In this document: positions 1-61,267 of the stretch, piece by piece | Layout of the letters: every line of letters begins with the position of its first letter | Position numbering within the stretch: position 1 is the stretch's first letter | Source: Propionibacteriaceae bacterium | GTDB lineage: Bacteria; Actinomycetota; Actinomycetes; Propionibacteriales; Propionibacteriaceae | Direction: 5' to 3' | Assembly: GCA_031265875.1 (NCBI GenBank) | Contig: JAISCA010000049.1 | Span: forward strand, 1 to 64,000 | Length of the DNA: 64,000 bases | Program-made: the position numbers and the translations under genes | Notes under the pieces: model-generated | What the model was told of the DNA's origin: nothing | Database searches by the model: none | The model's input: only the letters and a program-made list of their open reading frames with translations

Positions 1-117
1 TCACGTGTTACTCACCCGTTCGCCACTCGTGTACTCCGAAGAGCCTTACCGTTCGACTTGCATGTGTTAAGCACGCCGCCAGCGTTCGTCCTGAGCCAGG
101 ATCAAACTCTCCGTTGA
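1..117 (-). rRNA. rrs: 16S ribosomal RNA, 5' end (partial)
   Basis: The minus strand reads AGAGTTTGATCCTGGCTCAG at 91-110, the universal 16S 5' motif, so the gene runs off the left edge. The mature 5' end is placed about 7 nt upstream of AGAGTTTGATC by analogy with E. coli, hence 117 with a few bases of uncertainty. It lies downstream of tyrS on the same strand, which is the usual actinobacterial tyrS-rrn arrangement. Only the first 117 nt or so are present. Confidence 0.96.
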
Positions 118-2136: not shown

Positions 2137-3496
2137 AGGGCCGGATCTGTCCTTGCCCCCAGACGATCCACTTGGTGCAGGTCAACTCGGTCAAGCCCAT
2201 CGGACCGCGCGCGTGCAGGCGTTGGGTCGAGATGCCGACTTCGGCCCCGAGGCCGAATTGGCCGCCGTCGGTGAAACGGGTCGAGGCGTTGACCATGACA
2301 GCGGCCGAGTCGACTTCGTCGACGAAGCGCTGGGCCGCCACCAGGTCGGACGTCACGATGGCCTCGGTGTGCCCGGAGGACCAGGCTCGGATGTGCTCCA
2401 GCGCCTCCGTCAACGAGTCGACCACCCGCACGGCGATCTCCAGACCGAGGTATTCGGTGGCCCAGTCCGTCTCAGTCGCCGCCAGCACCGCGACGCCGGG
2501 TGGAGCGGCGGCTTGGACGCGGGCGTCGCCGTGCACGACCACGCCAGCGGCGGCCAGGGCGGCCAGGGCGCGGGGCAGGAAGTCATCGGCTCTGGCGGCG
2601 TGGACCAACAGGGTCTCGGCCGCGTTGCAGACCGAGACCCGTTGGGTCTTAGCGTTGAGCAAGATGGCCAGAGCCATCTCCAGCTCGGCGCTGGCGTCGA
2701 CGTAGACGTGGACGTTCCCCACCCCGGTCTCGATCACTGGCACGGTGGCCTGTTCCACCACGGCCGCGATCAAGTCGGCGCCGCCCCGGGGGATGACCAC
2801 GTCGACCAGTCCCCGGGCCCGCATCAAAGCCACCGCGCCGGGCCGGCCCCAAGGATCGATCGACTGCACCAGATCGGGCGGCCAACCTGATTCGGACAAG
2901 CTGCGGCGTAAGGCCGTGACGATGGCGGCGTTGCTGTGCTGAGCCGCCTGGCCGCCGCGCAGCAGACAGGCGTTGCCACTCTTGAGGGCCAACCCGGCGG
3001 CGTCCACCGTGACATTGGGACGGGCCTCGTAGATCAGGCCGACCACGCCCAGCGGCACCCGGACCTGACGCAGCCTGAGCCCGTTGGGCAGGGTCGAACC
3101 GCGCACCACCTGGCCCACCGGATCGGGCAGGTCGATCAGAGCGCGCAAGCCTTCGGCGCAGTCCGCCAGTCGCCGCTCGGTCAGTTCCAAACGGTCGAGC
3201 AAGCCGTCCGACCAGCCGGCCTTCAGGGCGGCGGCCAGATCGCAGGCGTTGGCCCGCAGGATGTCCGGGGCCGCCTGCCCCAAGGCGTCGGCCCAAGCCG
3301 CCAGGACGGCGTCTTTACGGCTGCGGCTGGCGTTGGCCCAGAGCCGGGCGGCGGCCCGGCTGCGGCGGGCGGCTTGGGCCACGGCCAGGGCTGGATCGTC
3401 GGCCCCGGCCGACTGTCCGAGATCCGCCTCGGTCCTCTCGCTCGATTCGGCCTCCCCCGTCGCCGAGCTGACCGGCGGGTCTTGTTGAATCAACAT
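2135..3496 (-). CDS. proA: Glutamate-5-semialdehyde dehydrogenase (gamma-glutamyl phosphate reductase)
   Basis: Catalyses NADPH-dependent reduction of gamma-glutamyl phosphate to glutamate semialdehyde, the second step of proline synthesis. The 453-residue product contains the ALDH-like signature with the catalytic cysteine in [10 protein letters not shown] (near residue 288), [19 protein letters not shown] for cofactor binding, and a [10 protein letters not shown] tail motif typical of ProA. The N-terminus carries about 35 extra low-complexity acidic residues before the conserved [10 protein letters not shown] region. The start ATG lies exactly 6 nt after a TAAGCT box. proB is not in the window. 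The stop codon TAG lies within the right arm of an inverted-repeat element. Confidence 0.95.
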
Positions 3497-31205: not shown

Positions 31206-31605
31206 GGACGAGTCGACCGGGTGACCGCAGGCGTAGCCTGAGGAAAGTCCGGACTCCACAGAGCGAGGTGGTGGGTAACACCCACCTGGGGCGACCCACG
31301 GGAAAGTGCCACAGAGAACAGACCGCCCGCGAGGGTAAGGGTGAAACGGTGGTGTAAGAGACCACCAGCGTCCCGGGTGACCGGGACGGCTTGGCAAACC
31401 CCACCTGGAGCAAGGCCAAGAAGGTCCGCCCCGGCGGACCGCGTCGGCGTCTAAGGGCTGCTCGCCCGAGCCGACGGGTAGGCCGCAAGCCGGTCCAGCC
31501 AGGCCCAGCCTGGCCCAGCCGGCCCAGGCCAGTGGTGACACTGGTCGCAGATGGATGGTCACCGGCCGCAAGGCCACAGAATCCGGCTTACAGGTCGGCT
31601 CGTCC
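31206..31605 (+). ncRNA. rnpB: RNase P RNA, bacterial class A
   Basis: Catalytic RNA that trims tRNA 5' leaders. The 5' conserved block GAGGAAAGTCCGGACTCCAC is at 31240-31259, and the 3' block ACAGAATCCGGCTTACAG at 31576-31592. The ends are set by stem P1: GGACGAGTCGACC (31206-31218) pairs with GGTCGGCTCGTCC (31593-31605), with one G-U pair. Length about 400 nt fits the actinobacterial class A form, and -10 spacing agrees with the 5' end. Confidence 0.96.
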
Positions 31606-31615
31606 ACCGTCTTGA

Positions 31616-31649: not shown

Positions 31650-31767
31650 CTAGAAGCCCCAAAAAGTGTCCTCCCTCCGCTGCGCTCCGGTCCGGTACTT
31701 TTCGGGGACCCCGAGAAACCGAAACTCGGCTCATTCGTCAAAGTTTCAAACACCTAGTGAAGCTAGT
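31650..31767 (+). repeat. 118-bp structured repeat bounded by CTAG, copy A
   Basis: Matches copy B (60206-60323, opposite strand) at 114 of 118 positions, with identity ending sharply at CTAG on both sides. It can form three successive hairpins. Hairpin 1: CCCCAAAAAGT (31657-31667) with ACTTTTCGGGG (31697-31707). Hairpin 2: CCGAG / CTCGG. Hairpin 3: the terminal CTAG pair. It lies just after the rnpB terminator in the sense orientation. Positions 31768-31832 that follow show nothing recognisable. Confidence 0.8.
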
Positions 31768-60205: not shown

Positions 60206-60323
60206 ACTAGCTTCACTAGGTGTTTGAAACTTCGACGGATGAGCCGAGTTTCGGTTTCTCGGGGTCCCCCAAAAGTACCGGACCGGAGCGCAGCGGAGGG
60301 AGGACACTTTTGGGGGCTTCTAG
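60206..60323 (-). repeat. 118-bp structured repeat bounded by CTAG, copy B
   Basis: Read on the minus strand it matches copy A (31650-31767) with four substitutions. Hairpin 1 is a perfect 11-bp stem here (CCCCCAAAAGT / ACTTTTGGGGG). Two of the four differences between copies fall on the same base pair of that stem. The thiL stop codon TAG (60322-60320) is part of the left boundary CTAG, so the repeat begins at the end of thiL in the sense direction, like copy A after rnpB. Confidence 0.8.
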
Positions 60324-61267
60324 AAGTGACGCCAGCCCTGGGGCCCCGACCAAGGCTGGCCGTCGACCAACACGGTCGGGTCCTGAGACCCGGTCGCCGT
60401 CGTGCGTCCGATCACTTCCCAGCCGCCTGGCACCTGCCCGAAGGGGAAAGCGCCGACCAAGGCGTGGTCCTCGCCACCGGACAAGACGAACTCCAAGGGA
60501 TCACGACCGCTGGCCCCGGCCACCGCCCGCACCGGCTCGGCCACCGTCAAAGCCTCGGAGTCGAGATCGAAGCTGACGCCGGAGGCCCGGGCGACGTGGC
60601 CCAGATCGGCCACCAGACCGTCTGACACGTCGATCAAGGCGGTGGCCCCGAACATGGCCGCCTCGGCCCCGGCCCCATAGGGCGGCAGCGGGCATTGATA
60701 GGCCTGGACGGCCGCCCGGGGCGAACGGAAGCCTCGGGTCAGGGCGGCCAGGCCAGCCGCCGCCCAGCCCAGTCGTCCCCGCAGGGCCACTAGGTCGCCG
60801 ACCTGAGCCCCCGACCGCAGGACCGGCGGCTGGCCCCGCGACTCGCCCAACGCTGTCACGGCCAGACTGATCTGGGCGGCGGCGCTGACGTCCCCACCGA
60901 TCAGTTCGACTCCGGCCCGGGCGCACTCCTGGCGCAGACCGGCCAAGCAGTCGATCGCCCAACTGGCGGGTAGGTCGCCGGGAGCGGCCAAACCGACTAG
61001 GACGGCCACCGGATACGCCCCCATGGCCTCGATGTCGGACACCGCCACCGCCACCGCCTTGCGTCCGATCTCGACCGGTCCCGACCAGTCCCGGCGGAAG
61101 TGGACCCCTTCGATCAGCCAATCGAGGGCGCTGACGGCCTGGCCGGCGATCTGGCAGACGGCCGCGTCGTCGCCCGGGCCGACCGAGACCGCCGGAGCTT
61201 GGACCAGGTCGGCTTGGATGCGCTCGATCAGGCCGAACTCGCCCAGCTCGGCCAATGTCTGACTCAT
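60320..61267 (-). CDS. thiL: Thiamine-monophosphate kinase
   Basis: Phosphorylates thiamine monophosphate to thiamine diphosphate. 315 residues of the PurM/AIR synthase fold: GPGDDAAV, LDWLIEGVHFRRDW, GGDVSAA, LIDVSDGLVADLGH and SGGEDHALV. The ATG overlaps the ddl stop as ATGA. The last codon is followed by TAG lying in a CTAG-bounded repeat; the length is still normal. Confidence 0.94.
   Translation of the reverse strand: MSQTLAELGEFGLIERIQADLVQAPAVSVGPGDDAAVCQIAGQAVSALDWLIEGVHFRRDWSGPVEIGRKAVAVAVSDIEAMGAYPVAVLVGLAAPGDLPASWAIDCLAGLRQECARAGVELIGGDVSAAAQISLAVTALGESRGQPPVLRSGAQVGDLVALRGRLGWAAAGLAALTRGFRSPRAAVQAYQCPLPPYGAGAEAAMFGATALIDVSDGLVADLGHVARASGVSFDLDSEALTVAEPVRAVAGASGRDPLEFVLSGGEDHALVGAFPFGQVPGGWEVIGRTTATGSQDPTVLVDGQPWSGPQGWRHF

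Follow-up and report, generated by a model that had tools for sequence, protein, structure and literature searches.

The 118-bp repeat present twice in the window, the entire 64,000-nucleotide stretch of DNA analyzed here, is a mobile sequence, and it is probably best described as a nonautonomous, composite, REP-like element that an enzyme of the HuH/Y1 type would mobilize in trans. The two window copies are 96.61% identical (4 differences over 118 positions), each opening with CTAG and closing with CTAGT, and both lie downstream of a gene in its sense direction, one after rnpB and the other at the end of a thiL-like gene (Table 1); two of the four differences form the two sides of a single stem pair, A·C in one copy and C-G in the other. 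On all these points we agree with the initial annotation, from which the name thiL is also taken, the domain evidence for this gene being an AIRS N-terminal domain (Pfam). Its proposal that each copy folds into hairpins held in part: folded as a single sequence, the rnpB copy does not stand out (z = −0.65) and the thiL copy does so only modestly (z = −2.45), whereas the stem of the hairpin termed module A covaries across species, so that the structural case rests on cross-species covariation and not on the folding of single sequences.

The element consists of the hairpin module A, sometimes in tandem, and a shorter module B, with CTAG at either end. Module A contains a CCCC/GGGG foot, an A·C mismatch, a 6-bp covarying stem, a pentamer-like loop, and an ACCCC tag. 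Module B, of about 41 nt, has a second possible hairpin (predicted by folding only) and is regarded as a separate module because copies with A only, A-A-B, and A-B-A-B exist. Most units are arranged as A-B, and A-A-B, A-A-A-B, and A-B-A-B arrangements also occur, joined via one shared CTAG or short linkers. At the 3′ end of the element lies a (TGAAGCTAG)n tail, in which the ends of copies fall at the first, second, or third CTAG. Apart from the repeat, the edge of the window (1-117) holds the start of a 16S rRNA match, which is on the minus strand (Rfam search).

Table 1. Coordinates of the element copies, their modules, and the neighboring genes in the window
Feature	Position	Strand	Remarks
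Full element, copy 1	31650..31767	+	CTAG ... CTAGT; downstream of rnpB; G006 rnpB 3′ region without the element
Full element, copy 2	60206..60323	-	Directly at the end of the thiL-like gene; G006 site empty
Module A, copy 1 (56-nt hairpin core)	31657..31712	+	Core-model match, alignment, pair counts
Module B, copy 1 (second hairpin region, predicted pairing)	31713..31753	+	Separate unit by comparison of copies
3′ terminus CTAGTGAAGCTAGT, copy 1	31754..31767	+	Copies compared
Module A, copy 2	60261..60316	-	Mismatch replaced by C-G
TAG of the element as stop codon of the thiL-like gene	60320..60322	-	Gene calls and G006 comparison
rnpB (RNase P RNA, class A), upstream neighbor of copy 1	31209..31606	+	Rfam RNaseP_bact_a
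thiL-like gene, upstream neighbor of copy 2	60320..61255	-	Gene call, Pfam AIRS N-terminal domain

Copies are not restricted to these two places. The genome from which the window comes (G000, a draft of 3.12 Mb in 70 contigs) yielded 51 matches at 40 places, with E values of 1.3e-52 for the best other copies, and a local search of the fetched G000 loci added fragments of 59 and 52 bp, giving 42 places; with 51 matches in a 3.1-Mb genome, chance similarity is rejected, as the initial annotation had expected. Arrays of at least two units occupy 10 of the 42 places, and the true copy number is probably higher because arrays run into contig ends (contigs C25, C40, C46, and C51). A 138-bp query searched against 57 genomes found a match in 7, G000 included, all of one genus. 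Among the 18 genus mates, at E ≤ 0.001, G008 has 23 matches, G002, G006, G011, G014, and G015 have 1 to 4 each, and 12 have none, leaving G008 as the only copy-rich genome among the matching mates. Some of these relatives are Propionibacteriaceae MAGs, probably of termite-gut origin to judge from isolate names. The G008 copies form a subfamily that keeps the A core with another covarying stem and another B end (GGTGCTCTAG), and many of them are bounded by CTAG on both sides. In several G008 copies (L031, L044, and L045), (T)TGGAATCAACCAT precedes the CTAG, and in L031 and L045 TGGAATCAACCAT and ATGGTTGATTCCAAG are the two arms of an inverted repeat. Another repeat, about 180 bp long, found at G000:C44:112433-112616 (L185:7433-7616) and at about 20 further places in G008, belongs to a different family.

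The closest relative seen is G006, with an rnpB gene 94% identical, and it holds one B-like remnant and no match to module A. The element was absent from G006 at all 19 orthologous sites compared, 16 of which aligned on both flanks and 3 on the upstream flank only. These places are rnpB, thiL, three on C44, C3:79150, two on C9, and 11 reached via concatenated upstream flanks (a search that gave a G006 orthologue for 11 of 14 flanks and none for L025, L026, and L027); one of them is a 59-bp B-only fragment, and copy C3:66585, for which no G006 flank aligned, was left out of the count. Since the rnpB and thiL 3′ ends of G006 are both empty, an ancestral origin of the element as part of these regions is rejected. 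The cleanest empty sites are in the FabD-like gene, the thiL-like gene, and rhaM; at the first, G006 reads ...CAC|GCCGG... and G000 ...CAC-element-GCCGG..., G006 being too diverged for base-exact junctions everywhere.

Copies sit between genes, at stop codons, and, in three cases, in frame inside called genes, the calls being made with a simple codon model trained on the window. The TAG of the element serves as the stop of a gene in four cases: thiL, rhaM, and the L062 gene end in TGA in G006 and in the TAG of the element in G000, with the same protein length as far as the sequences can be read, and in the L014 gene (tRNA-synt_1c domain) three residues are added before the TAG. The three in-gene copies, all in the sense direction, lie in an Lhr-like helicase gene, in a gene for a 781-amino-acid protein, and at the C terminus of the FabD-like protein, whose G006 orthologue is empty. 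Insertion into the Lhr-like gene (PF23234/PF23235) keeps the frame, and the colinear G006 gene lacks the element and about 70 further bp; the copy in the 781-amino-acid protein, for which neither a Pfam match nor a G006 orthologue was found, is in frame according to its gene call alone. C-terminal extensions of an SDR protein and an ApbE-like protein are also called; on these calls, the element adds peptides to the Lhr-like helicase, the FabD-like acyltransferase, and the ApbE-like protein in addition to supplying stop codons. The dispersed family, the empty sites, the lineage-specific amplification, and the copies in coding sequence establish the mobility that the initial annotation had suspected.

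How the element moved was approached through its ends and flanks. CTAG starts the element at 30 of the 42 G000 places, and CTAA or CTGG at 4 more. Beyond CTAG there is no terminal inverted repeat (score 8, matched or beaten by 1662 of 2000 shuffles), and no flank duplication outside CTAG was found in 26 copies. The 5′ flank, compared in 33 copies, is biased at positions –4 to –1 (p = 3e-6, 3e-4, 1e-3, and 3e-5) and weakly at –5 (p = 0.025), with the degenerate consensus G-[TAC]-[CG]-[not C]-[T/C]. Of the first 15 positions following the last CTAG (34 copies), the composition deviates only at +1 (T 14, G 12; p = 3e-4) and +11 (p = 0.01), and the T at +1 is probably the last base of the element itself. 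T occupies –1 in 10 of 11 G008 copies, several of which share a preceding repeat. A target preference lying mainly on the 5′ side, together with the lack of flank duplication, suggests that the element transposes in trans by a single-strand (HuH) route.

YTAR-type targets are used by some IS families, and a MITE mobilized by a DDE transposase that duplicates CTAG as its 4-bp target would explain the CTAG found at both ends of most copies, as well as the single CTAG shared by neighboring tandem units. We consider this unlikely, because no terminal inverted repeat extends beyond CTAG, right ends stop at different CTAGs, and CTAG was present at none of the eight G006 empty sites with a readable left junction, which read CTGA (three), CTGG, GCCG, CCCA, GGTA, and GCCC (junctions in the diverged G006 were read by eye, and some alignments are ambiguous by one base). 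CTAG as an obligatory target is not supported.

The core hairpin extends well beyond the genus, but its distribution is patchy. Searching GTDB 220 genomes with the loop pattern returned 82 stretches, mostly from Propionibacteriaceae MAGs; the other holders are Antribacter, Promicromonospora, Tetrasphaera, Cellulomonadaceae, an Actinomycetota MAG, Clostridia and Limadaptatus MAGs, and one Bifidobacteriaceae and one Azoarcus MAG, the last two of which may be misbinned. A-B type elements ending in CTAG are seen at L088 and L109 (Bifidobacteriaceae MAG) and at L140 (Azoarcus MAG), through either transfer or misbinning. We read 80 of the 82 stretches (L148 and L149 were left out, though both hold the pattern), and their 89 pattern hits are followed by GGGGNCCC in 76 cases and preceded by CCCC in 84, neither of which the pattern required. 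In the 87 distinct cores, gathered with a pattern that holds parts of the foot and of the loop constant, pair 6/46 is C-G in 46, A-T in 31, G-C in 4, and T-A in 1, and pair 7/45 is A-T in 63 and G-C in 20. Pair 5/47 is A·C in 66 and not Watson-Crick in 72 of 87 on the top strand; on the opposite strand the mismatch becomes a G·T wobble, and 81 of 87 cores are paired there. An alignment of 47 cores has 98.9% of its cells paired, with 27 cells changed on both sides against a shuffle mean of 7.6, and its covariation score was reached by 0 of 500 shuffles. Two of the five measures, the number of pairs with double changes (2; 466 of 500 shuffles) and that of further pair types (5; 401 of 500), were not above the shuffles, the covariation being carried by two stem pairs only.

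Such covariation would also be found in a structured RNA or mRNA 3′-end element (a stabilizer, terminator, or processing signal) selected at gene ends, and the G·T wobble would suit an RNA of the opposite strand as well as it suits folded DNA. The 42 G000 places include 16 sense and 7 antisense copies between codirected genes, 6 convergent, 5 divergent, 3 in-gene, and 5 at contig ends; sense exceeds antisense with a two-sided p of 0.09 between codirected genes and of 0.03 when the in-gene copies are added (19 versus 7). G008 has 5 sense, 3 antisense, 2 convergent, and 5 divergent copies at 15 places in the fetched loci (L063 position 3608, a false positive in coding sequence, is not counted); the two genomes together have 21 sense and 10 antisense copies (p = 0.07). 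From these direction counts, a sense 3′-end location is a mild tendency at most. Selection as an RNA at gene ends is improbable given the copies between divergent genes, the insertions in coding sequence, the 12 genus mates without a match, the better pairing of the opposite strand as RNA, and the copies inspected, none of which has a U-run after the hairpin. The same lack of a U-run led us to reject an intrinsic terminator. With a sense bias that is weak and that is not seen in G008, the repeat is not a dedicated 3′-end RNA element, and this part of the initial interpretation, a processed RNA at gene 3′ ends, is withdrawn in view of the 5 divergent and 7 antisense G000 copies and the lack of a clear sense preference in G008; effects on neighboring mRNA ends are probably side effects.

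A core model with stricter filters, scoring 14 candidates per genome, matched 4 of 396 Actinomycetota genomes, and the foot pattern with any loop matched 3 of 396, G000 being among them in both searches. Among 19 genomes chosen for holding the core or a relative of it, the foot pattern was found in 17, one of which holds as many as 49 copies, and the reversed control gave 0 matches; the two without it were the Promicromonospora and Azoarcus genomes. Loops on this foot vary (ACC..GGAC, ATTCC..GGAA, ATTGC..GCAA, and ATCG..AGA), with compensatory inner-helix changes by eye. In related Propionibacteriaceae, in other Actinomycetota, and in Clostridia, the foot is found again with loops and partner modules of other kinds. 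Partner modules differ, being CTAG-B in some genomes, GTCATCCCGGACTTGTTCCGGGATC repeats in Md513_bin89, and a GACGACCCCCTTCAAACCCCC block in Gx481_bin65. In the named loci together with a few phylum loci, 87 hairpins were of the A type and 15 were not, whereas mononucleotide shuffles of the named loci averaged 5.7; of the 15, at least two resemble A variants.

The joining of one hairpin to different partners in different genomes, like the tandem A and A-B arrays, might be put down to a passive spread that involves no transposition and is driven by gene conversion, slippage, and recombination among the hairpin repeats. This is very unlikely, since insertion at 19 unrelated loci compared with G006, together with the site preference on the 5′ side, requires some step in which the site is chosen. 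The least probable source is a retrotransposed, SINE-like small RNA with the (TGAAGCTAG)n tail as its 3′ signature, which would fit the variable tail repeat number, the defined 5′ end, and the structured sequence, and for which yeast mitochondrial GC clusters are a discussed analogue (PMC4478555), but few copies are 5′ truncated, a CTAG-type start is kept at 34 of 42 places, and the tandem A-A-B arrays would be left unexplained.

The closest known kind is the REP/RPE class, itself well known, although two of the features that define REPs, a GTAG/CGTC tag and a host Y1 transposase, are lacking. GTAG REPs with their RAYT/TnpA-REP (PMC3733652 and PMC8266576) share with the element an imperfect hairpin with a mid-stem irregularity, conserved here at position 5/47, many copies, tandem and composite forms, species-specific subfamilies, intergenic and some in-frame intragenic copies, and the use of the TAG of the repeat as a stop codon; in-frame copies, TAG stops, and tandem and composite forms are all on record for known REPs (PMC3733652). 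E. coli TnpA-REP requires a GTAG motif at the foot and a bulge in the stem (PMC8266576). Unlike these, our element has no GTAG/GTGG 0 to 2 nt 5′ of the foot, where CTAGAAG (top) or GGGGT (bottom) stands instead; its foot reads GGGGT on one strand and ACCCC on the other, no Y1/TnpA-REP gene was found in the draft host, and the whole is a 118-bp composite with CTAG ends. CGTC REPs and Rickettsia palindromic elements (RPE) likewise have no dedicated transposase known and insert in frame into protein genes (class described in PMC3733652). In-frame insertions were seen here in the Lhr-like and FabD-like genes, whose G006 orthologues are empty, and a third by gene call only; the ends of the element, read directly, carry no CGTC tag, and in Md513_bin89 the same A hairpin adjoins a separate CGTC-type repeat. 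We therefore place the repeat close to REPs, and regard this likeness as strong.

BOX elements of Streptococcus are modular, built as boxA-boxB-boxC; likened by description only, they resemble the element in their modular units and variable tandem copies of one module, and belong to a different host. Nonautonomous IS200/IS605 derivatives of the PATE type have a hairpin near the end, no terminal inverted repeat, and a constant last tetranucleotide. The element shares with them a hairpin near its end, the lack of a terminal inverted repeat and of duplication outside CTAG, a target preference mainly on the 5′ side, and a constant last tetranucleotide. The target motif of these derivatives is at the left end, and the right side of the element deviates only at +1 and weakly at +11; they have hairpins near both ends, and here covariation supports that of module A, whereas that of module B is predicted by folding. 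A further difference is that no matching autonomous element or transposase was found. In IS200/IS605 elements, two tetranucleotides set the insertion point, one that flanks the left end and one that closes the right end (PMC6006769). Yeast mitochondrial GC clusters, which are likewise short palindromes rich in GC and need no protein of their own to multiply, merge, and shuffle, differ in being organellar, in sequence, and in having AG or ACT flanking duplications (PMC4478555).

Among 36 genomes searched for the Y1 transposase domain (PF01797), only G013 and G015 gave a match, and the draft genomes G000 and G008 gave none; a resident Y1 transposase is rejected on this genome search and, for the fetched loci only, on their own search. 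By eye, other hairpins adjoin the Y1 genes of G013 and G015, and at locus L150 GGGGACCCC lies downstream with no A hairpin. At L150-L158 in these two genomes, several Y1 genes adjoin long GGGGAC-type inverted repeats, possibly separate REP/RAYT systems of the genus. No autonomous copy was present among the matches. An Rfam family is rejected in the absence of a covariance-model match at the window copies or in 4 loci at E ≤ 1, and hairpin-specific strings were absent from the literature searched, in which short foot strings occurred only in papers on other subjects; so far as tested, this bears out the impression in the initial annotation that no named family is involved. Viral contigs had no match to the loop pattern, and plasmid and phage collections had none to a 49-nt hairpin query, with which weak relatives could be missed; phage or plasmid carriage is rejected for the collections searched.

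Because the element fits the IS200/IS605 anatomy in a setting that has neither a GTAG motif nor a host Y1, we hold its mobility to be demonstrated, its likeness to REPs to be strong, and HuH mobilization in trans to be the most likely, if unproven, step. The mobile unit comprises at least one module A and one module B with CTAG at each end, and would move as folded single-stranded DNA. A HuH/Y1-type transposase acting in trans would cut and join it, presumably reading the foot and mid-stem irregularity of the A hairpin and the degenerate five-base target just 5′ of the insertion point. The source of this enzyme may have been lost, may have been missed by PF01797, or may be supplied from elsewhere. 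Against the HuH reading we count the absence of Y1 from G000 and G008, the degeneracy of the 5′ preference, and CTAG ends that could be a target duplication.

The insertions can be counted and compared with an empty close relative, and target preference, element ends, in-frame insertions, and a cross-phylum hairpin are readable together, so that the enzyme moving transposase-less REPs becomes a testable question. More tentatively, the bottom-strand core GGGGT-CCCCG-NNAAGT-variable loop-ACTTNN-TGGGG might define, next to the GTAG and CGTC types, another superfamily of mobile REP-like hairpins that carry a tag, shared by Actinomycetota and Clostridia, equipped with lineage-specific partner modules, and moved by an undescribed single-strand enzyme.

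Two further arrangements were seen around the hairpin. At L068-L071, L107, and L111 (Md513_bin89), module A adjoins CGTCATCCCGGACTTGTTCCGGGATC-like repeats that resemble CGTC-type REPs, and the commonest hairpin of this genome has the same foot with a very short loop. At L141 (Clostridia MAG), near 3003, GGGGTCCCCG-foot hairpins with a AAAGAATTTT-type loop flank an A hairpin.
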